This document shows positions 10,114 through 21,903 of a stretch of 64,000 nucleotides of DNA, in pieces (the stretch's first letter is position 1; every line of letters starts with the position of its first letter). Made by a program: the position numbers and the translations under genes. The stretch is taken from positions 1 to 64,000 of the forward strand of contig CAIMTJ010000048.1 of the NCBI GenBank assembly GCA_903844385.1. The letters run 5' to 3'. The stretch is from an uncultured Burkholderiales bacterium. GTDB lineage: Bacteria; Pseudomonadota; Gammaproteobacteria; Burkholderiales; Burkholderiaceae_C. The notes under the pieces were generated by a model that saw only the letters and a list, made by a program, of their open reading frames with translations, did no database searches and was not told the DNA's origin.

Positions 10114-11265
10114 TCACGGTTGTTGTAATAATAAAGAGGGATGTGCGCTTTTCATCTGCTCTAGATAGTTGAGCACTTGCAGTTGACTTTGTGGGTCATC
10201 GCAGTCAATGATCTTTCGTTGGGGCCAGCCTCTGAGCCAAGTCAACTGCCGCTTGGCCAATTGCCTGGTGGCGGTTTGAGCGATATCCACAAAATGCTGA
10301 TAAGCCACTTCGCTCTCGATATCTGGCATCAACAGCGGCTCAGACACAGCAGGATATTTTTGTTGGAGAGTGGCCCACAACTCATAAGCTTGTCGGTAGC
10401 CCACACTTTTCATACTGGGCAAGTCCGCACTCACCTGTGGCTTGGCCACCAAACCTTGAACCTCGGCCAAGAAGCCCGCGTCAAGCATTGCTTGAAAACG
10501 CCCATGGATTCTTTGGTGCAGCCAAGACCTCTTGGCCGGTTCAAGTGAGAGCAACAAAAAACGCTCACTTCCATTGGCTTGGAGGACAACACCCCCATCG
10601 ATTGGCGAGGAATGGGTGTGCTCACCCGTCAGCTGCTCCTCTGAACTTCCCACTTTCTCATGGTTGTCACTCTCTTGTGTCTGCCCACCCAGCGAATGGG
10701 GATCCTTGTACTTGGATTGAAACGCGGACAAGGGCTGCCCCGTGATGCGCCAGACTTCCAATGCACGCGAAATTCTTTGCGAGTCGCCAGGCGCCAAGCG
10801 AGTTGCCGTCTGTGGGTCAACTCGAGAGAGCTGTTCGTGCATGGCCGCCCATCCAAGCACTTGGGCTTCTTGGGCCAAGGCTTCACGCACTTTGGGGTCG
10901 CTTTTGGGCATCTCATCCAAGCCCTCACTCAGGGCCTTGAAGTAAAGCATTGTGCCGCCCACCAACACTGGTAAACGACGTCTTTCGCGAATCTGCCCTA
11001 TCAAGGTATTGGCGTCCCTCACAAATTCGGCTGCACTGTAAACTTGATCCAAACTTCTGATGTCTATCAAATGGTGAGGCACTTGTGACAAGTCAGCCGC
11101 AGAAGGCTTTGCCGACCCAATGTCCATACCTTGGTAAACCAAGGCCGAATCCATACTGATGATTTCGATGGGCCAACGCTTGGCCAAGGCCATGGCCAAA
11201 TTGGACTTTCCAGAAGCGGTGGGGCCCACCAAGGCCAAGCAAGTCCAATGCGGCAAGGCGGACAT
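10114..11265 (-). CDS. miaA: tRNA dimethylallyltransferase (with insertion)
   Basis: Adds the dimethylallyl group to A37 of tRNAs reading UNN codons. The P-loop GPTASGKS is at residues 14-21, with MDSALVYQGMDIGSAKP just after and the VGGTMLYFKAL and SVGYRQAYELW segments further on. At 383 aa it is well above the usual 300-320. The excess is a hydrophilic, Ser/Glu/His-rich insertion at about residues 187-231, just after the GQPLSAFQ segment, plus a longer C terminus. It lies 56 nt behind mutL on the same strand, the mutL-miaA order found in many proteobacteria. Confidence 0.94.
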   Translation of the reverse strand: MSALPHWTCLALVGPTASGKSNLAMALAKRWPIEIISMDSALVYQGMDIGSAKPSAADLSQVPHHLIDIRSLDQVYSAAEFVRDANTLIGQIRERRRLPVLVGGTMLYFKALSEGLDEMPKSDPKVREALAQEAQVLGWAAMHEQLSRVDPQTATRLAPGDSQRISRALEVWRITGQPLSAFQSKYKDPHSLGGQTQESDNHEKVGSSEEQLTGEHTHSSPIDGGVVLQANGSERFLLLSLEPAKRSWLHQRIHGRFQAMLDAGFLAEVQGLVAKPQVSADLPSMKSVGYRQAYELWATLQQKYPAVSEPLLMPDIESEVAYQHFVDIAQTATRQLAKRQLTWLRGWPQRKIIDCDDPQSQLQVLNYLEQMKSAHPSLLLQQP

Positions 11266-11321: not shown

Positions 11322-13334
11322 TTAGCGACCTCGCATGAACAAGGCGTCCAGCGCTTTGATGCTCAATTGATGCCAAGTGGGGCGGCCATGGTTGCATTGA
11401 TCCGAGCGTTGGGTGACCTCCATTTGACGCAGCAAATCGTTCATCTCCCCTAGGGTGAGCTGACGGTTGGCCCTCACTGCCGAGTGGCATGCCATGCTGG
11501 CCAGCAAATCATTGCGGGCGCGCTCAATCACCCACTCGCCCTCATGCTGCGCCAAATCACTCAATACGCCACGAACCAAAGCCACCCAATCAGCGTCGCC
11601 CAAGGCCGCAGGAACAGCGCGGATGGCCAGGGTTTTGGCTGATAGGGCCGTCACCTCCAAACCCAATGTTGACAAGGTCGAGGCATGCTCCTGGGCGACC
11701 ACCATTTCCTCCTCTGTCGCGGCAAAGCTCACGGGAATGAGCAGTGTTTGACTGCTCAGGGTGTTGGCATCCCACTGTGTTTTGAGCCTCTCGTAAACAA
11801 TGCGCTCGTGCGCGGCATGGATATCGACCAACATCAAGCCTTGCGCGTTTTCTGCAAGCAAGTAAATACCGTGCAACTGCGCCAAGGCGCGTCCCATCGG
11901 CCAGTCTTGTGGAGCTTCTGGCAAAGCAAGCGATGGTGGAGGTGAAATGCCTCTTAAAGACCCATCGACCGATGCGGGCTGATTGAAGTCTTCGCGCTCA
12001 GGGGCTTGGGAGCGTTCAGCTTGAAGATCTCGCTCGTTCAAATCCGTCCCAACCAGTGCAGACGAAGTGGTGTCCTGAGCGCTGGAGGGATTCCACAAGG
12101 CTTTGAGACTGGCCATGGAGTCGACATTCAAATTCATGGTCGATTGACGCCACGCTGAAGGGGTGAATGCCGCTGCTTTGCCAGGACCATAAGAGCCCCC
12201 CCCAAAAAGGGCTTGATTGGGCAGTGGCGTGCGGGGCAACTGACTGGGCTCGCCAGAGCTTGCGACGGCAGCATGGTCATGGAAGGCGCTTTCTGAGACT
12301 CGCGGCTTACTGAGAGCTGCTTGCAATGCGTGAACAATGACTTGATGTATATCTCTGGAATCTCTGAAACGCACCTCAATTTTGGTGGGATGCACATTCA
12401 CATCCACGCGTTTTGGGTCCATTTCCAAAAAGAGAATGTACACAGGCTGACGTTGTCCGTGCAGTACATCTTGATAAGACGTGCGAATGGCGTGGGTGAT
12501 GACCTTGTCTCGAACAAAGCGTTGATTCACGTAAGCGAACTGATGGTCTCCTCGCGCTCGCGAGGCCTGGGGCAATCCAACGCGGCCATAGATCCTGACC
12601 CCCCGCTCTTCATGATCGATGGCCAAAGACTCGTCTAAAAAGTCCTGGCCCAATACATCGGCCATGCGCTGCTCGAGCGCAGACACGAGCGCCTGCTCGC
12701 TTGGCTTGTGAGCGCGCCACTGCTGCACCAACTTGCCTTCGTGCCAAACGGTAAAGCCCACATCGGGCCTGGCCAGGGCATGACGCCTGACAGACTCCAC
12801 GCAATGGGCGAGTTCAGTGGCGTCGGTTTTTAAGAATTTGCGTCTCGCTGGGGTGCTGAAAAAAAGCTCCCTCACCTCCACGGTTGTGCCCTTGGCGCGA
12901 GCGGCAGCACTCAACTCACCTGTGCGAGCTTGCAAAGACATCGCCACCGCTTGATCTTCAACTCGAGAGACGATGGCGAGTTCACTGATCGAGGCAATGG
13001 CCGCCAGTGCTTCACCGCGAAAGCCCATGGAAGCGACTTCTTCCAGGTCGTGCAAATTTTCAATTTTGCTGGTGGCATGGCGCTTCAAAGCCATGGCCAA
13101 TTGCTCACTGGGAATGCCGTTGCCGTCGTCTTCAACACTGATGAGTCTCACGCCACCGGCAAGCAAGCGCAAATCAATGTGTGTGGCACTGGCGTCCAAT
13201 GCGTTGTCAACCAACTCCTTGACAACAGAGGCCGGGCGCTCAATCACCTCGCCAGCGGCGATTTGGCTGATCAACTCGCTGGCCAACTCCTGAATGGGAC
13301 GAGGCTTATTGGATGGGGGCAGTGCTGTGTTCAC
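11322..13334 (-). CDS. mutL: DNA mismatch repair protein MutL
   Basis: GHKL ATPase of mismatch repair. The N-terminal half has ELVDNALDA, VEDDGNGI and SMGFRGEAL. The C-terminal half holds the motifs of nicking MutL proteins: DIHAAHERIVYE (a variant of DQHA-X2-E-X4-E), ACHSAVRA and CNHGRP. This suggests a MutH-independent system in which MutL itself cuts the strand. Between them lies a long low-complexity linker at about residues 345-470. The start appears to be GTG at 13334. Length is 670 aa. Confidence 0.95.
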   Translation of the reverse strand: MNTALPPSNKPRPIQELASELISQIAAGEVIERPASVVKELVDNALDASATHIDLRLLAGGVRLISVEDDGNGIPSEQLAMALKRHATSKIENLHDLEEVASMGFRGEALAAIASISELAIVSRVEDQAVAMSLQARTGELSAAARAKGTTVEVRELFFSTPARRKFLKTDATELAHCVESVRRHALARPDVGFTVWHEGKLVQQWRAHKPSEQALVSALEQRMADVLGQDFLDESLAIDHEERGVRIYGRVGLPQASRARGDHQFAYVNQRFVRDKVITHAIRTSYQDVLHGQRQPVYILFLEMDPKRVDVNVHPTKIEVRFRDSRDIHQVIVHALQAALSKPRVSESAFHDHAAVASSGEPSQLPRTPLPNQALFGGGSYGPGKAAAFTPSAWRQSTMNLNVDSMASLKALWNPSSAQDTTSSALVGTDLNERDLQAERSQAPEREDFNQPASVDGSLRGISPPPSLALPEAPQDWPMGRALAQLHGIYLLAENAQGLMLVDIHAAHERIVYERLKTQWDANTLSSQTLLIPVSFAATEEEMVVAQEHASTLSTLGLEVTALSAKTLAIRAVPAALGDADWVALVRGVLSDLAQHEGEWVIERARNDLLASMACHSAVRANRQLTLGEMNDLLRQMEVTQRSDQCNHGRPTWHQLSIKALDALFMRGR

Positions 13335-13435: not shown

Positions 13436-14110
13436 ATGACCCTTTTGATGCAATATTTGGACCTACTCTTACACATCGATCGCACTTTGCAAGAGGTGGT
13501 TGCCAACTATGGCGATTGGACTTATGGATTGATCTTTTTGATCATTTTTCTAGAAACTGGGCTGGTCATCACTCCCATCCTACCTGGGGACTCTTTGCTC
13601 TTCATGGTGGGCACCCTGTGTGGCTTGGGGCTTTTGTCATGGCCCATCGCTTTCGGCCTATGCGTAGCGGCAGCCATCTTGGGCGACCAGTTGAATTTTT
13701 TGACAGGTCGCTATTTGAGTCCACGCCTCATGACAGGTCCGCTGGGCCGCTTGATCAATGCCAAGAACATTGCTCGAACACATCAATTTTTCAAAACCTA
13801 TGGTCCGGCCACCTTGGTATTGGCGCGCTTTATGCCACTCATTCGAACTTTTGCGCCCTTTGTGGCTGGATTGGGCGCCATGAACGCGAGCACTTTCACC
13901 CTCTACAACGCCAGTGGTGGCTTGTTGTGGGTGGCCAGCGTGCTGGCCTTGGGGCTTTTCTTTGGTCAACTCGAATGGGTGCGTACCCATTTAGAGATCA
14001 TCATTTGGGCTTTGATTTTGGTCCCGAGTGGTTTGGCCGTTTGGAGTGCCTGGAGAGCCCAAACTGGCCACGACAACGTTGCCCCAAACAGCAGCCCCCC
14101 TTTCAAATGA
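13436..14110 (+). CDS. DedA-family inner-membrane protein
   Basis: A 224-residue DedA/SNARE-associated (VTT) protein. It shows the early acidic-plus-glycine segment ETGLVITPILPGDSLLF, the central GRYLSPRLM... region, and the FARFMPLIRTFAPFVAG re-entrant arginine motif. DedA proteins are thought to flip lipids such as undecaprenyl phosphate or phosphatidylethanolamine and to support membrane potential. Several transmembrane helices are visible. Divergent from mutL, 101 nt away. Confidence 0.92.
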   Translation: MTLLMQYLDLLLHIDRTLQEVVANYGDWTYGLIFLIIFLETGLVITPILPGDSLLFMVGTLCGLGLLSWPIAFGLCVAAAILGDQLNFLTGRYLSPRLMTGPLGRLINAKNIARTHQFFKTYGPATLVLARFMPLIRTFAPFVAGLGAMNASTFTLYNASGGLLWVASVLALGLFFGQLEWVRTHLEIIIWALILVPSGLAVWSAWRAQTGHDNVAPNSSPPFK

Positions 14111-14208
14111 ATTCCACTTGGGCTTTGCTGCTAGAGCGCTCTTGCCTGGTTTAACATCGGGTATCAGTTTTTTTTCATGGTGACTATACCTTTGTGAGGT
14201 TTGACCGC

Positions 14209-15531
14209 ATGAACTCTCCCACCGATCCTTTACTGCGACCCCAAGTCGATTCATCGCGTGTGCCATTTTGGGCTTATACCGACCCCCAACTGCACGCCCA
14301 GGAATTGAATCGAATTTTTTATGGTGCTCACTGGAACTATGTGGGCTTGCTGGCCGAAATTCCCCAATTGGGTGACTTTAAAAAATCCCAAGTCGGCGAG
14401 CGTGAGGTGATCATGGTCAAAGACCATGTCCATCCCACTCAAAAAGACATCGATCACGGCATTCGCGTGGTCGAAAACCGGTGCGCTCACCGGGGCGTGA
14501 GGTTTTGCCAAAAAACCCATGGCAATCAACGCAGCTTTGTTTGCCCCTATCACCAATGGGCCTACAAGCTCAATGGCGATCTGGGCGGACTGCCATTCAA
14601 GGACGGGGTTGAGCGAGACGGTCAAATCCAAGGTGGGATGCCCAAAGACTTTGATTTAAAACAACACGGTTTGAATCGCCTCAAAGTCGAGGTGTTGCAC
14701 GGTTTGGTCTTTGCCACTTTTGACCACAATGCTCAACCGCTTCACGACTACTTGGGGCCGAAGATTTTGCCTTGGGTGGAGCGCATTTTCAAATCTCGTG
14801 AACTGACCCTTTTGGGCTACAACCGCCAGCGAATTCCGGGCAACTGGAAGCTGATGATGGAGAACATCAAAGACCCCTATCACCCAGGCTTGCTGCACAC
14901 TTGGTTTGTGACTTTTGGTCTGTGGCGAGCGGACCAGCGCAGTCGCATGGTCATGGATGACTTGGGCCGACATGCCGTGATGATCTCGCAAAGAAATGAG
15001 GGTGGTGGTGGCGCGGTCACCCAGGGCGTCACCAGTTTTAAGCCCAACATGAAACTTCACGACGATCGTCTGCTTGATATTGTTCAAGAGCCCTGGTGGA
15101 CCATCCCTGACCCCGCAGAGCTCAGCAAGTCCATCACCCCCAGCGTCACCATGATCACCTTGTTTCCCAGTTTGATCATTCAGCAACAAGTCAACTCGCT
15201 ATCGACTCGACAAATCATCCCCAATGGACATGGTCAATTTGATTTTGTATGGACCCATTTTGGCTTCAAGGACGATACGCCTGAGATGACGCGCAGACGA
15301 CTGCGACAAGCCAATTTGTTTGGTCCTGCGGGTTATGTGAGCGCTGACGACGGCGAAGTGATTGAGTTCAGTCAAGCCGGCTTTGAGCAATTCAACAGCG
15401 ATGGCTTGCGCCAAGGCGAAACTTTGTGTGAGTTGGGCGGCAAGGAAGTCGCCATGACCGATCACATGGTCACCGAAACTTTGATTCGCGGCATGTACCA
15501 GTATTGGAATGAGGTGATGGGCCATGCATGA
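14209..15531 (+). CDS. Rieske aromatic-ring dioxygenase, large subunit (anthranilate-type)
   Basis: Catalytic alpha subunit of a ring-hydroxylating dioxygenase, 440 aa. The Rieske [2Fe-2S] ligands are C92, H94, C112 and H115; the mononuclear iron histidines are H225 and H230 in DPYHPGLLHTW. The sequence around MRLRQANLFGPAGYVSADDGE-like positions resembles the anthranilate 1,2-dioxygenase (AndAc) and salicylate 5-hydroxylase group more than the naphthalene group, but this is from memory. ATG 14209 has GAGG 9 nt upstream. The small subunit overlaps by 8 nt. No ferredoxin or reductase gene is near, so electrons must come from elsewhere. Confidence 0.9.
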   Translation: MNSPTDPLLRPQVDSSRVPFWAYTDPQLHAQELNRIFYGAHWNYVGLLAEIPQLGDFKKSQVGEREVIMVKDHVHPTQKDIDHGIRVVENRCAHRGVRFCQKTHGNQRSFVCPYHQWAYKLNGDLGGLPFKDGVERDGQIQGGMPKDFDLKQHGLNRLKVEVLHGLVFATFDHNAQPLHDYLGPKILPWVERIFKSRELTLLGYNRQRIPGNWKLMMENIKDPYHPGLLHTWFVTFGLWRADQRSRMVMDDLGRHAVMISQRNEGGGGAVTQGVTSFKPNMKLHDDRLLDIVQEPWWTIPDPAELSKSITPSVTMITLFPSLIIQQQVNSLSTRQIIPNGHGQFDFVWTHFGFKDDTPEMTRRRLRQANLFGPAGYVSADDGEVIEFSQAGFEQFNSDGLRQGETLCELGGKEVAMTDHMVTETLIRGMYQYWNEVMGHA

Positions 15532-16099
15532 CAACACACCCCCCAACCGACTGGGAAATATCACCCCGGTTGATGATCAAGCAACACTGCAAAACTTGCA
15601 GCTCGAGATCAACCACCTCAACGCTCAATATGCTCGGGCCTTGGACGAGAAAGATTTTGAGCAGTGGCCTGAGTTCTTCATTCATGAAGGTCGTTACACG
15701 GTTCGATCACGAGAAAATCACGAGCGTGGTCTGCCCTTGGCCTTGATGGATTTGGAGAGTCAAGGTATGATGAAAGACCGCATCTACGGCGTGACCAACA
15801 CCATTTTTCATGCGCCTTATTACACCCGCCATGTGGTGAGCTGCACCTTGGTTGTGGGCAGCACCCCCACATCGAGCTTGAGCCCACCCGTCCAATCGAC
15901 CACACTGGGTCCAACCCTTTGGGTAAGCAGCACGTCTTACGCTGTATTCAGAACCAAGCCCACACAAGCCACCGAGGTTTTCAATGTGGGTCAGTACTTG
16001 GACCACTGGACAAGCACTCCAACAGGCCTGAAATTGGTCTCCCGGCTCTGTGTCTACGACAGTGAAATGGTCCTCAACTCTTTTATTTACCCGATTTAA
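15524..16099 (+). CDS. Aromatic-ring dioxygenase, small subunit
   Basis: A 191-residue beta subunit of the oxygenase started by the preceding gene. It has the SnoaL/NTF2-like fold signature of the family: an early helix with YARALDEKDFEQWPEFF, then the RTR-like HAPYYTRHVVSCTLV strand region. Its ATG lies 8 nt inside the alpha-subunit gene behind a GAGGTG sequence, so the two are coupled. The beta subunit stabilises the alpha3beta3 complex. A Pro/Thr/Ser-rich insertion (about residues 112-126) makes the middle somewhat irregular. Confidence 0.88.
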   Translation: MHDNTPPNRLGNITPVDDQATLQNLQLEINHLNAQYARALDEKDFEQWPEFFIHEGRYTVRSRENHERGLPLALMDLESQGMMKDRIYGVTNTIFHAPYYTRHVVSCTLVVGSTPTSSLSPPVQSTTLGPTLWVSSTSYAVFRTKPTQATEVFNVGQYLDHWTSTPTGLKLVSRLCVYDSEMVLNSFIYPI

Positions 16100-16114: not shown

Positions 16115-17842
16115 TCAAGTTCTCGTTCTGGCCAGCGGCGGGTTGCGAGAAAAATAGCGCACCAAGGCCAACACCAAGGCCTCGGCCATTTGCTTTTGAA
16201 ACCCCGGCGTCAACAACTGTTTCTCCTCTTGGGGGTTGCTGATAAAAGCGGTCTCCACCAAAACGCTGGGAATATCGGGGGCCTTGAGCACGGCAAACCC
16301 CGCTTGTTCAACTTGGCCCTTGTGGAGCATGCCGACCCTGGAGATTTGACCCAAGAGCTCATGGCCGAGCTTCAAGCTGTCGTTGATTTGGGCGGCCGTG
16401 CTCATGTCCAAGAGCGTCTTTTGCACCAACTCATCGCGGCTCTTGAGATTGACCCCACCCACCAAATCGGCTTTGTTTTCTTGATTGGCCATCCACATCG
16501 CCGCTGCACTGGAGGCCCCCCCCTGGCTCAAGGCAAATACACTGGCCCCACGCGCCTTGGGGGTCATGAATGCATCAGCGTGCAAGCTGATGAAGAGATC
16601 GGCTTGAACGCGTTGGGCCTTGATGACGCGTTGCTGCAAAGGGACAAAATAGTCATCGTCTCGCGTTAAAAAAGCGCGCATGGGTAGCACACCGCTTCGA
16701 GTCTTGACGCGGGTGGCATTGATGAGCGTTTGCAACTGCTGAGCAATGGCCAAAACCACATCCTTTTCACGCGTGCCATTGGGCCCAATGGCGCCAGGGT
16801 CTTCGCCTCCATGCCCGGGGTCGAGAGCGATCACGATAAAGCGGTCGACTTCGACTGCATGGGGCTCGCTGCCCAGGACTGAAGACCCCACCCCTGCTCC
16901 CGCACGGGGGCTCAAGCTGGCAAAGGGTGTTGCTTGGCTCGGTGGCAAGCTGGGTTTGGACAAGGGGGGAGCACTCGCAACGGCTGGGGGTGCGGTGCTG
17001 ATGCTGGCGTTGACGCTCGTGGCGGGCGTTTGACTCGGTGCTGGCGGCGCTGGATTGACGGGCGTGTTCTGACGCTCTGGACGGCTCGCCACCCCCTTGG
17101 CGGCGAGATTATCCAAGGCAGTCGATGGGTTGTTCGGTTTTTGTCCAAACACCTCACGACTCACCGCCTGGTCCACAGGCGTGTCCGACATCTTGGGGCT
17201 TTGGGCCTGGAGCCACTCGGTCAATGCGTCCTCTTTGCCCAACGCGGGTTTGGACGGCGTATCGAGCTTGGCTGAATTCGCTGCCTTGGAGCGGGCAGTA
17301 TCAACACTCAAATTGCCACCCTGCATCTTTTGAGCAATCAAGGCCTCCAAGGGGTCGATCTCTTTGAGAGGATACAAATCCAACACCAAGCGGTAGCCAT
17401 ACTGCACTTGATCAGCTCGGCTCGAACTCAAGGCGGTCAAATTGAACACCTGGGGGATGACCTCTTGGCGCAGATCAAAGACCAAGCGCACAACGCCTGG
17501 AGAAAACTGCCCCACGCGAACACCGGCAATGAAAGGGTCATCGGATTTGATTTTTCCAACCAACTCTTTGAGCGCCGGGTTCAAATCAACCCCCGTGATG
17601 TCCAGGGCCAAACGAGCGGGGTTCGCGACCAAAAAGGGTTGTGCGCCCAAGGGCACATCGGACTCGATGGTCACCCGGGTGTACTCTTTGGCTGGCCACA
17701 CACGAACCGCCATGATGTTGGCACCCCAAGCCAACTCTTGTGCGCCCAGCAACAGCACCAACGAGCCTGATTGCACAAAGCCTCGCCGAGTCAGCCGTCC
17801 TTGGGGGACGCGCACAAGATCCAAGTGACTTTTAACCTTCAC
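16115..17842 (-). CDS. amiC: N-acetylmuramoyl-L-alanine amidase AmiC (Tat-exported)
   Basis: Periplasmic amidase that splits septal peptidoglycan. The N terminus has a twin-arginine signal (LTRRGFVQSGSLVLLL) as in E. coli AmiC. An AMIN domain follows (about residues 45-150), then a long Ala/Pro/Ser-rich linker, then the zinc amidase domain with ALDPGHGGEDPGA, the metal His in SLHADAF, and the catalytic Glu in VETAFISN. At about 575 aa it is longer than usual because of the linker. GTG 17842 overlaps the tsaE stop by 4 nt; GTG 17854 is also possible. tsaE and amiC neighbouring is common in proteobacteria. Confidence 0.94.
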   Translation of the reverse strand: MKVKSHLDLVRVPQGRLTRRGFVQSGSLVLLLGAQELAWGANIMAVRVWPAKEYTRVTIESDVPLGAQPFLVANPARLALDITGVDLNPALKELVGKIKSDDPFIAGVRVGQFSPGVVRLVFDLRQEVIPQVFNLTALSSSRADQVQYGYRLVLDLYPLKEIDPLEALIAQKMQGGNLSVDTARSKAANSAKLDTPSKPALGKEDALTEWLQAQSPKMSDTPVDQAVSREVFGQKPNNPSTALDNLAAKGVASRPERQNTPVNPAPPAPSQTPATSVNASISTAPPAVASAPPLSKPSLPPSQATPFASLSPRAGAGVGSSVLGSEPHAVEVDRFIVIALDPGHGGEDPGAIGPNGTREKDVVLAIAQQLQTLINATRVKTRSGVLPMRAFLTRDDDYFVPLQQRVIKAQRVQADLFISLHADAFMTPKARGASVFALSQGGASSAAAMWMANQENKADLVGGVNLKSRDELVQKTLLDMSTAAQINDSLKLGHELLGQISRVGMLHKGQVEQAGFAVLKAPDIPSVLVETAFISNPQEEKQLLTPGFQKQMAEALVLALVRYFSRNPPLARTRT

Positions 17843-18324
17843 TTCAAATTCCACAACAAGGGATCAAAGTGCAGCTTCACGCTTCTGCTCTCGTCCAGAT
17901 TCACGACCATCTCCAGCTCTAGACTGGGCGCAGACAAAAGACCCATCACCCGATCTGGCCACTCGTAAAGTTTCAACCCCGAAGAGGCAAAAACATCCCT
18001 CAATCCGGCCTCCTCCCACTCCAGGGGATCGTTCATACGATAAAAATCCAGGTGCCAAATGTTCAATGGGGTTGGTCCTTGTTGGCCTTGGTAGGTCTCC
18101 ACCAAGGTGTAGGTGGGGCTTTTGATCACGCCGCTCACTCCCAAAGCCCTCAGCAAATGACGCACCAAGGTGGTCTTGCCCGCTCCCAAGTCGCCTCTTA
18201 AGGCAATTTCAGCGTTCAAGATGCTGGGCTCGAGCGCCAACTGTTGCGCAAAAACCTGGGTCTCACCCTCATCGGCCCATTTCATGCATACTGTGCGCTT
18301 GGCGTTATTCAAAGGGACACCCAT
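17839..18324 (-). CDS. tsaE: tRNA threonylcarbamoyladenosine biosynthesis ATPase TsaE
   Basis: ATPase partner of TsaB/TsaD in making t6A37 on ANN-decoding tRNAs. Walker A is GDLGAGKTTLV; the downstream SPTYTLVETYQG and HLDFYRMNDPLEWEEAGL segments are characteristic of the YjeE family. 161 aa if started at ATG 18324; an internal ATG at 18285 gives a more typical N terminus. It overlaps amiC by a few bases, and its start faces that of queG almost base to base on the other strand. Confidence 0.93.
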   Translation of the reverse strand: MGVPLNNAKRTVCMKWADEGETQVFAQQLALEPSILNAEIALRGDLGAGKTTLVRHLLRALGVSGVIKSPTYTLVETYQGQQGPTPLNIWHLDFYRMNDPLEWEEAGLRDVFASSGLKLYEWPDRVMGLLSAPSLELEMVVNLDESRSVKLHFDPLLWNLK

Positions 18325-18325
18325 C

Positions 18326-19573
18326 TTGCTAGATTCTTCGGCATTGTTAGACCAGATTAGGTCTTGGGGGCAAGACCTTGGATTTTCTCAAATCGGCATC
18401 TCTGGCGTTGATCTGAGCCAAGCCCAGGCGCCCTTGCTCGATTGGCTCGAGCAAGGCTTTCATGGTGAGATGGCCTACATGAAACGCCACGGTTTGCTGC
18501 GCACACAACCCCAGGCGCTGCACGCAGGCACCTTGAGCATCGTGACCGCAAGGATGAATTACCTGCCAACCCTCAACACCGAGCAAAATCCAGTCAGTCT
18601 TGCCAACGACTTGTTACCCTTGCATTCTAAAGAGTTTCCAAGACCTCAACCCCAACAAGACCACAACGCTGCGCCGACGTGGACCACGCGTGAATGGCAA
18701 AGACTTCAAAATCCGCAAGAAGCGGTGGTGTCCCTGTATGCCCGTGGGCGAGACTATCACAAAGTGATGAAACAGCGGTTGGGGGTTTTGGCTGAAAAAA
18801 TTCAAAACCAAATGGGGCCTCTGGGCTACCGTGTCTTTACCGACTCTGCGCCCGTGATGGAAGTTCAACTCGCCACCCAATCGGGTTTAGGCTGGCGCGG
18901 CAAGCACACCCTGGCACTCAACCGGGGGGCAGGTTCGATGTTTTTCTTGGGAGAGATTTTCATCAATCAGGACCTGACCCGGGCTTTGAGCCAAGAAGAC
19001 CGTGCTCGCTATGCCCAAGACTCGCAGAACCATTGCGGCAGTTGTCAGGCCTGCATCGACGTTTGTCCCACCCAGGCCATTGTGGCGCCCTATATGCTCG
19101 ATGCCAGGCGATGCATCTCCTACTTGACCATCGAACACAAAGGCTCCATTGATGAGGCTTTGAGGCCTTTGATGGGCAACCGCATTTATGGCTGCGATGA
19201 CTGTCAGCTCATCTGCCCCTGGAATAAATATGCCAAACGCGCAGTGGTGTCCGACTTTGATGTGAGAGAGCACTTGAACGACAAAACTTTGCTCGAGCTG
19301 TGGAACTGGCAAGCAGCAGATTTTGATCGGCTCACTCAAGGCCAGGCGATTCGGCGCATCGGATTTGAACAATGGGTGAGGAATTTGGCCATTGCGCTGG
19401 GCAACGCTTTGCGCCAAACGCATGACCCGGAGCAAACTCGACAACTTCAAAATGCATTGTCACAACGCTTAGACGATGCCAGCTTTTTGGTGCGAGAACA
19501 TGTGCAATGGGCACTGGAGCAACACACTCAAAAGCAAGCCTCCCAAGAAACACTGACTGCCCCCCAGCCATGA
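18326..19573 (+). CDS. queG: Epoxyqueuosine reductase
   Basis: Cobalamin- and Fe-S-dependent enzyme for the last step of queuosine formation at tRNA wobble position 34. Two ferredoxin-type [4Fe-4S] motifs are visible: CGSCQACIDVCPTQAI and CDDCQLICPWN. The frame is open further upstream, antisense to tsaE, but that part is unlike QueG. The TTG at 18326 is preferred: AGGGA lies 8 nt upstream and the protein then begins with the usual short helix before QDLGFSQIGISG. This gives 415 aa. Its stop overlaps the next gene, a ferredoxin-pseudouridine synthase fusion, by 4 nt (ATGA). Confidence 0.93.
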   Translation: MLDSSALLDQIRSWGQDLGFSQIGISGVDLSQAQAPLLDWLEQGFHGEMAYMKRHGLLRTQPQALHAGTLSIVTARMNYLPTLNTEQNPVSLANDLLPLHSKEFPRPQPQQDHNAAPTWTTREWQRLQNPQEAVVSLYARGRDYHKVMKQRLGVLAEKIQNQMGPLGYRVFTDSAPVMEVQLATQSGLGWRGKHTLALNRGAGSMFFLGEIFINQDLTRALSQEDRARYAQDSQNHCGSCQACIDVCPTQAIVAPYMLDARRCISYLTIEHKGSIDEALRPLMGNRIYGCDDCQLICPWNKYAKRAVVSDFDVREHLNDKTLLELWNWQAADFDRLTQGQAIRRIGFEQWVRNLAIALGNALRQTHDPEQTRQLQNALSQRLDDASFLVREHVQWALEQHTQKQASQETLTAPQP

Positions 19574-20565
19574 ATGCATCGCCGGACCCAGACTTGGGTT
19601 TCACCATCACGCTCAAAAACCGCCGGCTTTCATGGCATTGCTCACCGCATGAGAGCGTGATCCACAGCGCCAAGCGCCAAGGCATCGAGTTGCCCACGAG
19701 TTGCCAAAACGGCACCTGCCGCACGTGTTTAATCCCCTCCTCCAAGGGAGGCCTTGAGCACCTTATCGCTTGGCCAGGCTTGAGCTTGGAGGAAAAAGCA
19801 CAAGGCGCGCTCTTGCCCTGTGTGGCTTGTCCCACCTCTGACCTTGAAGTTGAAGACTCACACTGGGGGGATGCCCTGTTTGAACAAGCTTTTGATCTCT
19901 TGCACGAAGACACCGAACTTTTGGTGCTCAACAAACCCAGTGGCCTATTGGCAGTTCCTGGCAAAGGAGCTCACAAACTCGACAGCCTCTCACACCGAGT
20001 GCAGCAGTGGGATGCGAGGGCCTTGATCGTGCACCGCTTGGACCAGGCCACCTCTGGTCTGATGCTGATGGCAAGAAGCCCGCAGAGCCAAAAAGACCTC
20101 TCTCGTCAATTTGCTCAGCGACAAATCGATAAGCGCTACTTGGCCAAAGTGCAAGCCACGCTCACGCCAAGCGAGGTGTGGCACACCATCGACGCCCCGA
20201 TTTATGCGGACTGGTCGCTTCGCCCCAAGCGGGTCATTGATGCGTTGGGACAACCGAGCCAAACGCGCTGGCGCGTTTTGCACACTAGCGGCGGGTTCTC
20301 TTGGCTCGAACTCCAGCCTCTCACAGGGCGCACCCACCAACTTCGTGTGCATTTAAGCCATCAGGGCTGGCCCATTGTGGGAGACCGCCTGTACGCCCCC
20401 GAATCGGTTCAAGCACTCAGCGAGCGACTGCTCTTACACGCTTGGACCATCCAACTGCAGCATCCCAAAACACAATCGGTGTTGAAATTTGAAGCGCCTC
20501 CCCCCAGCGAGTTACTCATTGCTCAAACGTCGAGACACAACATCAGCTCGTTGCAACAACTGTAA
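19570..20565 (+). CDS. [2Fe-2S] ferredoxin fused to RluA-type pseudouridine synthase
   Basis: A 331-residue two-domain protein. Residues 1-95 form a plant-type [2Fe-2S] ferredoxin: C45, C50, C53 and C84 have the classical spacing C-X4-C-X2-C-X30-C. Residues about 105-320 form an RluA-family synthase: NKPSGLLAVPG, catalytic HRLDQATSG with D158, the RPKR segment and GRTHQLRVHL. The RPK region resembles RluA itself, whose E. coli version modifies 23S rRNA 746 and tRNA position 32. The ATG at 19570 overlaps the queG stop by 4 nt, so both are made together. Fusion of an electron carrier to an enzyme whose reaction needs no electrons suggests the ferredoxin serves another protein, perhaps QueG. Confidence 0.9.
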   Translation: MNASPDPDLGFTITLKNRRLSWHCSPHESVIHSAKRQGIELPTSCQNGTCRTCLIPSSKGGLEHLIAWPGLSLEEKAQGALLPCVACPTSDLEVEDSHWGDALFEQAFDLLHEDTELLVLNKPSGLLAVPGKGAHKLDSLSHRVQQWDARALIVHRLDQATSGLMLMARSPQSQKDLSRQFAQRQIDKRYLAKVQATLTPSEVWHTIDAPIYADWSLRPKRVIDALGQPSQTRWRVLHTSGGFSWLELQPLTGRTHQLRVHLSHQGWPIVGDRLYAPESVQALSERLLLHAWTIQLQHPKTQSVLKFEAPPPSELLIAQTSRHNISSLQQL

Positions 20566-20721
20566 CCCTAGAGTTTTCATCCTTTCGAATTTCTTGTCTC
20601 AGACCAAAAAGGTGGCAAAAATCAGCTCTACAAGGGGTCGATCGGGAGCGCCCTTGGTCATCAATTGGGTTAGACTTTGTGGCAAGAAAAAGTTTTGTGA
20701 CCCGCCGAAAAGGATTTGGAT

Positions 20722-21903
20722 ATGCGTGAAGTCGTCGTCGTGAGTGCATTAAGAACGGCCATTGGCACCTTTGGGGGAAGTCTGAAGGACACCCCACCCA
20801 GCGTGCTGGCCACCACCGTGGTCAAAGCGGCCATAGAGCGTGCTGGGCTCTTGCCCAGTGATGTGGACCAAGTGGTGATGGGCCACGTCATCAACACCGA
20901 AGCGCGGGACCTTTATCTCTCGCGCGTGGCGGCCATCCAAGCCGGTTGCGACCATCGCGTCACCGCCTTCAATGTCAACCGTCTGTGTGGCTCTGGTCTT
21001 CAAGCGCTGGTGTGCGCCGCGCAATCCATTCAACTCGCCGACACCCGCATTGCTGTCGCCGGGGGTGCGGAAAACATGACCCGCGCACCTTTTCTCAACA
21101 ACGCCCAACGCTTTGGTCAACGCATGGGCGACGTGCAACTCGTTGACATGATGATCGGCGCCTTGCACGACCCCTTTGAAAACATCCACATGGGGGTGAC
21201 CGCCGAAAATATTGCTAAAAAGTGGGGAATCACTCGCCAAGAGCAAGATGCACTGGCCTTGGAGAGCCATCAGCGCGCTCAGCACGCCATCGCCCGTGGC
21301 TATTTCAACCAACAAATCATCCCCATCCCCCTCAAAACCCGAAAGGGCCCGGTACAGTGGGCCAGCGACGAACACCTTCGCATGGACGCCAAGGCCGAGG
21401 ACTTCTCACAACTCAAGCCCGTGTTCATCAAAGAAAATGGCACGGTGACGGCTGGCAACGCCTCTGGAATCAACGATGCTGCGGCCGCTTTGGTCTTGAT
21501 GGACAGCCAAGAGGCCCACTCCCGCCACCTCAAGCCCATGGCTCGGTTGGTGAGCCACGCTCACAGTGGCGTTGAAGCGGCTTATATGGGAATTGGACCT
21601 GTGCCCGCGACCCTGGCTGCACTCAAAAAAGCGGGATTAACGGTCCATGATTTGGATGTGATCGAAGCCAATGAAGCCTTTGCCGTCCAAGCCTGTGCGG
21701 TCATCAAAGATTTGGGGCTTGACCCGGCCAAGGTCAACCCCAATGGGTCTGGCATTTCACTGGGTCACCCCATTGGAGCGACCGGCGCCTTGATCACCGT
21801 GAAGGCCTTGCATGAGCTCGAGCGCATCCAAGGCCGCTACGCTTTGGTGACCATGTGCATCGGTGGCGGACAAGGGATCGCGGCCATCTTTGAGCGTCTC
21901 TAA
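20722..21903 (+). CDS. Acetyl-CoA C-acetyltransferase (thiolase)
   Basis: A 393-residue thiolase. The acyl-accepting cysteine is C89 in NRLCGSGLQAL; the C-terminal signature includes the histidine in the SGISLGHPIGATGA region and the second cysteine in MCIGGGQGIA. It condenses two acetyl-CoA or cleaves acetoacetyl-CoA, and could work with the CoA-transferase of the window. ATG 20722 is chosen over the in-frame TTG at 20716 because AAGGA lies about 8 nt upstream. It stands alone on the plus strand, 156 nt after the pseudouridine synthase. Confidence 0.93.
   Translation: MREVVVVSALRTAIGTFGGSLKDTPPSVLATTVVKAAIERAGLLPSDVDQVVMGHVINTEARDLYLSRVAAIQAGCDHRVTAFNVNRLCGSGLQALVCAAQSIQLADTRIAVAGGAENMTRAPFLNNAQRFGQRMGDVQLVDMMIGALHDPFENIHMGVTAENIAKKWGITRQEQDALALESHQRAQHAIARGYFNQQIIPIPLKTRKGPVQWASDEHLRMDAKAEDFSQLKPVFIKENGTVTAGNASGINDAAAALVLMDSQEAHSRHLKPMARLVSHAHSGVEAAYMGIGPVPATLAALKKAGLTVHDLDVIEANEAFAVQACAVIKDLGLDPAKVNPNGSGISLGHPIGATGALITVKALHELERIQGRYALVTMCIGGGQGIAAIFERL

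Follow-up and report, generated by a model that had tools for sequence, protein, structure and literature searches.

Pseudouridine synthases need no electrons. Why, then, would one carry a ferredoxin at its N terminus and be encoded directly behind the gene of a reductase? This question is raised by a 64,000-nucleotide stretch of DNA from an uncultured Burkholderiales bacterium (GenBank assembly GCA_903844385.1, contig CAIMTJ010000048.1, positions 1 to 64,000 of the forward strand), which is called the window in the following. Herein, a single open reading frame (ORF) joins an N-terminal plant-type [2Fe-2S] ferredoxin to a C-terminal RluA-type pseudouridine synthase and follows queG, the gene of epoxyqueuosine reductase. 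The explanation that we consider best, and on which we would place about half of our confidence, is that two adjacent genes, fer2 and rluA, were fused and that an inversion followed. The RluA half would modify RNA, and the ferredoxin half would be an independent electron carrier that does not specifically serve QueG. The ferredoxin and RluA are each well known; judged by its sequence, the fusion of both appears to be the new element. No description of a ferredoxin–pseudouridine synthase fusion was found in the titles and abstract openings searched, a coverage to which subscription journals mostly do not belong. In the portion of PMC3063783 available, both domain names occur in unrelated places.

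Architecture of the fusion protein

The fusion gene (19570–20565, + strand) encodes 331 amino acids (aa), counted from the ATG at 19570. The Fer2 domain (Pfam PF00111) occupies aa 17–89 (19618–19836, + strand), contains the cluster ligands C45, C50, C53, and C84, and scores 37.6 bits against a Pfam cut-off of 21. The RluA catalytic domain (aa 106–315; 19885–20514, + strand) is assigned from the stretch matching TIGR00005 and from the matches to PDB entry 2i82 by sequence and by Foldseek, and it contains the motif HRLDQATSG with the catalytic D158. Within this region, PseudoU_synth_2 matches aa 117–264 with 112.4 bits (cut-off 26.8). The two domains are connected by a linker (about aa 99–106; 19864–19887, + strand) with AlphaFold2 predicted local distance difference test (pLDDT) values below 50 at aa 98–106, which is consistent with a flexible tether. 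The model of the whole protein has a pLDDT of 74.5 and a predicted template modeling (pTM) score of 0.65. At its 5′ end, the gene overlaps queG in the sequence ATGA (19570–19573, + strand), read directly, in which the queG stop codon (TGA) and the start codon of the fusion (ATG) interlock. The original prediction had claimed a fusion of these two domains, a 4-nucleotide overlap with queG, and the residues C45, C50, C53, C84, and D158. All of this is borne out: both domains exceed their Pfam cut-offs within one ORF, and the five residues lie at the positions it had named and are invariant in the alignment of 13 fused rows.

An assembly artifact is unlikely because the uninterrupted fused frame recurs in 13 genomes of the genus, that of the window included. 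A fused copy with 93% identity to that of the window lies on contig CAISQQ010000038.1; it agrees with G165:C38 in length (7981) and gene layout and was counted once (G and L numbers denote genomes and loci). The 13 genomes gave 14 fused rows because L037 and L116 are the same contig; L037 was left out of the trees and genome counts. Two alignment rows, L107 and L110, begin at an internal start codon and lack their first residues; longer starts exist. The draft genome of the window holds no second full-length fusion, and two further matches in it (36–37% identity, synthase part only) are other RluA-superfamily genes. Membership in a defense system was also considered, and PADLOC gave nothing for the fusion.

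The synthase half

By NCBIfam comparison, the synthase half is nearest to RluA (PRK10158, 1.2e-46), followed by RluD (9.9e-33), RluC (2.1e-31), and TruC (8e-27). Escherichia coli RluA (2i82) is the best PDB match by sequence (3.1e-45) and ranks first in a Foldseek search with the fusion model, which also returns plant-type ferredoxins. E. coli RluA, the synthase of Ψ32 (pseudouridine 32) in tRNA and Ψ746 in 23S rRNA, shares with the fusion the catalytic domain with its HRLDxxTSG motif, in which H155–D158, including the catalytic Asp, are invariant in 13/13 fused rows. No other Pfam domain is found on the synthase half. Compared with E. coli RluA, the fusion adds the N-terminal [2Fe-2S] ferredoxin domain and scores below the E. 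coli-type equivalog cut-off. Both curated NCBIfam cut-offs for RluA are in fact missed, with 159.2 of 286 bits for the PRK10158 equivalog and 190.3 of 192.7 bits for the TIGR00005 subfamily. Three unfused relatives also miss both (165–225 bits with the E. coli-type equivalog), so fused and ordinary copies cannot be told apart here by these thresholds. The synthase half is classified here as RluA-type and not as a proven RluA equivalog.

As far as the available portions of the sources go, RluA recognizes UUxxAAA at tRNA positions 32–38 (PMC7822408) and is the main enzyme of mRNA pseudouridylation in E. coli (PMC11421799). In the tRNA genes read—27 different ones in the draft genome (G000) and 30 of 31 matches in the related genome G178—this motif fits only tRNA-Cys GCA, tRNA-Leu CAA, and tRNA-Phe GAA, in both genomes. 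The RluA half would accordingly be expected to isomerize uridine to Ψ32 in Cys-, Leu-, and Phe-type tRNAs, and probably also at position 746 of 23S rRNA.

The ferredoxin half

All four cluster cysteines are kept in 14/14 fused rows and in 33/33 separate ferredoxin loci, of which 31 lie within the genus and 2 outside; these loci comprise 31 different cores (two repeats). Loss of the cysteines in most homologs, which had been named as an outcome that would speak against the original prediction, is thus seen neither in the 13 fused genomes nor in the separate loci. Ratios of nonsynonymous to synonymous substitution rates (dN/dS, NG86 method) for eight fused pairs are 0.066–0.183 in Fer2 and 0.056–0.16 in RluA, where several dS values exceed 1 and are saturated. 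Purifying selection thus seems to act on the ferredoxin half after fusion, and the cysteines in all examined copies together with the low dN/dS suggest that the cluster matters. The subfamily is marked by CRNGTCRTC and by the signature WPGLSxEEK around W68–E75, for which invariant alignment columns are the evidence. Nine more distant fused proteins, 46–53% identical to that of the window over the full length, keep the ligands and the WPG..E signature; in four aligned more-distant fused rows, identity within the ferredoxin part is 32–49%.

With plant-type [2Fe-2S] ferredoxins (Pfam Fer2), the domain has the CX4CX2CX30C ligands in common, and Synechocystis ferredoxin (1off) is a fold match. It differs from them by its distinct WPGLSxEEK subfamily and by being joined to an RNA enzyme. 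The cut-off of TIGR02008 (fdx_plant) is not reached (36.2 versus 81.15 bits), which makes it a member of the superfamily and not of that subfamily. Similarity to YfaE-type ferredoxin (NF007985) and to the Fer2 domains of oxygenase reductases (MmoC, BenC), all of the Fer2 superfamily, is detectable; however, the domain scores far below their curated cut-offs, and the fusion has no reductase module. Outside the genus, this ferredoxin subfamily stands alone, away from rluA and in changing contexts. The pattern CRNGTCRxC...WPGLSxEEK...LPCVA recurs in several other genera of the family (L069–L097), where a VF530-like gene or an MFS transporter gene is the neighbor in some loci.

Distribution of the fusion and the ferredoxin

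The genus was sampled with 84 genomes including that of the window. The fusion query matches 67 of them at E ≤ 1e-35, and all 68 matching loci were read. The fusion itself occurs in 13/84 genomes. The ferredoxin is present in 44/84 (profile scores of at least 111 bits, the next matches being at most 74 bits), and in all 44 it is found with rluA: fused in 13, separate and close in 26, and with a transporter gene in between in 5. For one of these five, G172, the linkage spans a contig break and was deduced from the ends of two contigs (L140 and L244). Where the genes are separate and close (27 loci of 26 genomes), 8–68 nucleotides lie between the fer2 stop and the start of the rluA match, and in 7 of these 27 loci the frames are in register with a single TAA between them.

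In 23 genomes of the genus, rluA occurs without this ferredoxin. A further 17 genomes without an rluA match (E ≤ 1e-35) also have no ferredoxin; as many of these drafts are incomplete and a gap can remove neighboring genes jointly, nothing is made of this co-absence. Likewise, where a draft genome shows no ferredoxin or no queG, the reason may be an assembly gap. In 18 genus loci, rluA follows miaA with no ferredoxin in between (L058, L117, L121, L122, L133, L136, L141, L144, L145, L147–L149, L153, and L155–L159), suggesting that the ferredoxin was lost there or gained elsewhere.

Beyond the genus, no match spanning the ferredoxin domain appears among the matches listed for 120 family genomes (two of which belong to the genus), and the ferredoxin lies within about 5 kb of rluA in 3/53 family loci examined. 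Among the matches listed, no full-length fusion besides that of the window is found in 349 genomes of the order (E ≤ 1e-65) or in 398 genomes of the phylum (E ≤ 1e-40), E-value floors at which a weak, distant fusion could be missed. Independent fusions elsewhere were sought by tblastn in the 13 stretches reaching furthest into the N-terminal half—ten listed rows extending to model position 80 or less, one to position 83, and the family rows G005 and G013—and no ferredoxin was found in them; the cysteine pattern occurs by chance in two (L237, L304).

Gene order and the probable inversion beside queG

In the window, the fusion is preceded by queG (18326–19573, + strand), which is assigned by TIGR00276 with 419.6 bits (cut-off 200) and taken with the TTG start as given. 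Further upstream follow tsaE (17839–18324, − strand; PF02367), an amiC-like N-acetylmuramoyl-L-alanine amidase gene (16115–17854, − strand; PF01520), a dedA gene for a VTT/DedA-type membrane protein (13436–14110, + strand; PF09335), mutL (11322–13334, − strand), and miaA (10114–11265, − strand). Downstream lies a gene for a BktB-like thiolase (20716–21903, + strand; PRK09051, 680.8 bits, cut-off 565), which is also found downstream of many separate fer2–rluA pairs. Written in order, the window reads miaA(−) mutL(−) dedA(+) [Rieske pair (+)] amiC(−) tsaE(−) queG(+) fer2–rluA(+) thiolase(+). Un-inverted relatives such as G160 (L161), oriented on rluA, have queG(−) tsaE(+) amiC(+) dedA(−) mutL(+) miaA(+) fer2(+) rluA(+) thiolase(+); L244 shows the same block up to fer2, and in other relatives mutL and miaA are separated by a transporter gene. 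The window thus contains the relatives' block turned round, so queG stands in the place of miaA. The queG-adjacent, inverted state occurs in 11 genomes, and because of this narrow distribution it is taken to be the derived state. Two genomes with the fusion, G138 and G155, retain the un-inverted order, in which miaA immediately precedes the fused gene. Across the genus, the upstream neighbor of the ferredoxin varies and includes rluE-hyp92, miaA, and queG, among others. The adjacency of queG is most likely the result of one inversion and not a purpose-built partnership.

The proposed course of events would start from an orphan [2Fe-2S] ferredoxin gene that stood by itself immediately 5′ of rluA, a housekeeping gene. 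In part of one Burkholderiales genus, both would have been fused, and inversion of the block from queG to miaA (about 9.5 kb in the window) would then have put queG in the place of miaA. On its short and probably flexible tether, the ferredoxin half would carry electrons to a soluble partner, not specifically to QueG. Observed here are both domains with their ligands, the order of the genes, and the low dN/dS; cluster assembly, both activities, the independence of the halves, and the direction and order of fusion and inversion are inferred.

Several observations weigh against this course of events or leave parts of it loose. A joint tree of ferredoxin and RluA does favor it, with the 11 inverted rows in one clade (support 99/96), but the tree of RluA alone (77 rows) groups nine inverted rows (95/92), with G159 and G151 in an open fork, and the fused state needs three changes on it. 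As to fusion before inversion, a single clade of all 13 fused rows is not rejected (p value of the approximately unbiased test, p-AU, 0.215), yet the best tree keeps G138 and G155 apart. The confidence of the structural model is moderate, so the docking of the domains is not fixed by it. As the copies were recruited by similarity to cysteine-bearing ferredoxins, strongly decayed ones could escape. An all-against-all comparison of ORFs from 28 loci, with 1.5 kb on either side, found no constant partner of the ferredoxin outside the genus, no neighbor recurring in more than six other loci. Finally, fer2 is always found near rluA within the genus, which may reflect halves that work together instead of independently.

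Possible roles of the ferredoxin half

Such a working link is the core of the main rival, in which the [2Fe-2S] cluster senses the redox or iron state and tunes RluA, and pseudouridine in tRNA, 23S rRNA, and mRNA follows. We regard this iron–sulfur gate as rather unlikely, although it is favored by the unbroken linkage: fer2 is fused to or near rluA in 44/44 bearing genomes though the upstream neighbor differs, and its ligands are kept with low dN/dS after fusion. A gate would also have targets, given this role of RluA in modifying mRNA in E. coli, mentioned above (PMC11421799, as available in part). On the other hand, the linkage may be inherited synteny, most RluA relatives in the family have no nearby ferredoxin, the 23 genus genomes named above have rluA alone, and in other genera the ferredoxin lies away from rluA. 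If the gate were real, it would explain why the ferredoxin stays with rluA across the genus. To our knowledge, no iron–sulfur-gated pseudouridine synthase is known, and this would be the first; it would couple the modification of RNA directly to the iron and redox state. A passenger without function, by comparison, should lose its cysteines. That the ferredoxin half is such a harmless passenger, or a structural extension of RluA acquired by accidental and neutral fusion, is improbable given that the four ligands and the WPG..E signature persist among fused proteins of 46–53% identity and that dN/dS is low. Fusion itself would be easy, since in 7 loci only a single stop codon interrupts a common frame of the two genes; this reading is also favored by the absence of fusions outside the genus among the matches listed.

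The original prediction had read the ferredoxin as the electron donor of QueG, co-made by translational coupling, with both enzymes working on one tRNA loop. Its fusion, overlap, and four ligands stand; the dedicated partnership and the shared loop are not supported. The donor role itself is unlikely in our estimate. A start codon overlapping queG is available in 11/11 queG-adjacent genomes, and QueG should have a substrate because tgt and queA are present in the genome. In the accessible portions of the literature, the redox partners of QueG are described as little known as of 2015 (PMC4646009), and plant-type [2Fe-2S] domains feed reductive dehalogenases, sister enzymes of QueG in class III (PMC10463259); the same source notes that the own clustered ferredoxins of one dehalogenase failed in vitro. 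Self-sufficient reductive dehalogenases, whose fused reductase carries a plant-type ferredoxin domain, have in common with this locus a plant-type [2Fe-2S] domain and a cobalamin/[4Fe-4S] enzyme of the class of QueG. Their domain, however, is fused to the cobalamin enzyme it supplies, whereas that of the window is part of a pseudouridine synthase whose gene shares no more than an overlap with queG (PMC10463259, in part). Within the genus, queG is present in 76/84 genomes (E ≤ 1e-40). In 34/84, it occurs without this ferredoxin; 12 of these genomes have a completeness of at least 90% and contamination of no more than 5%. The ferredoxin, found with rluA throughout, has queG beside it in 11 genomes and another neighbor in the remaining 33/44, and the adjacency fits an inversion. 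As a constant partner, QueG is weakened by these counts. Because queG occurs without the ferredoxin in 34 genomes and rluA in 23, neither enzyme seems to need it.

The shared loop is contradicted by the tRNA genes. Queuosine goes into GUN anticodons (PMC9508795, in part), and the corresponding tRNAs read UUGUGAU at positions 32–38 in tRNA-His (G000 and G178), CUGUCAC in tRNA-Asp, and CUGUAAA in tRNA-Tyr (the latter two in G178 only). None of these fits UUxxAAA, which is found in the Cys, Leu, and Phe tRNAs instead. tRNA-Asn was not recovered in G000 or G178; its GUU anticodon gives U36 and so no fit. Since the recovered queuosine-type tRNAs do not have the motif, the tRNAs modified by RluA most likely differ from those of QueG, and a common loop is rejected. 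Within the inverted clade, a donor role for QueG is conceivable but unlikely; if the tethered ferredoxin did feed QueG, a redox partner would be named for a class III cobalamin enzyme.

Rieske oxygenases of the anthranilate-dioxygenase type need an electron donor as well, and such a pair lies 3.5 kb away (14194–16099). That the ferredoxin feeds it is very improbable. Its alpha and/or beta subunit is found beyond amiC in 9/11 inverted loci (L099 and L107 end inside amiC), and the NCBIfam models AndAc and AndAd match with 359 and 97 bits, both below cut-off. The oxygenase is also present in two genomes without this ferredoxin, G131 and G139, and the fused G138 and G155 have none in the stretch fetched; as an acceptor it is thus a weak candidate. 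The independent carrier fused to RluA is preferred to these four readings, and un-inverted, inverted, separate, and ferredoxin-free relatives form a natural series for a test of the gate and donor readings.

Neighboring genes

The genes of the Rieske alpha and beta subunits (+ strand) lie between dedA and amiC, and the alpha subunit gene is also seen in G131 and G139. The ATG of tsaE (− strand) and the TTG of queG (+ strand) are one base apart (18322–18328), which leaves no room for an intergenic promoter; the true start of queG may lie inside tsaE. Within the window, tsaE, the amidase, the VTT protein, and the thiolase were assigned by Pfam, whereas mutL (with tblastn to relatives) and miaA (as an ORF, with gene order) were named by sequence recognition and not by family search. 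In the relatives, the names amiC, dedA, mutL, miaA, rluE, hyp92, MFS, and LLM rest on tblastn to one eye-named reference each. The protein hyp92 (about 92 aa; L111:6970–7248, − strand, and similar) is conserved and has no Pfam match at E 1e-4. Its gene lies near rluA in L125, where there is no ferredoxin; in 23 loci of the genus, it precedes a separate ferredoxin gene.

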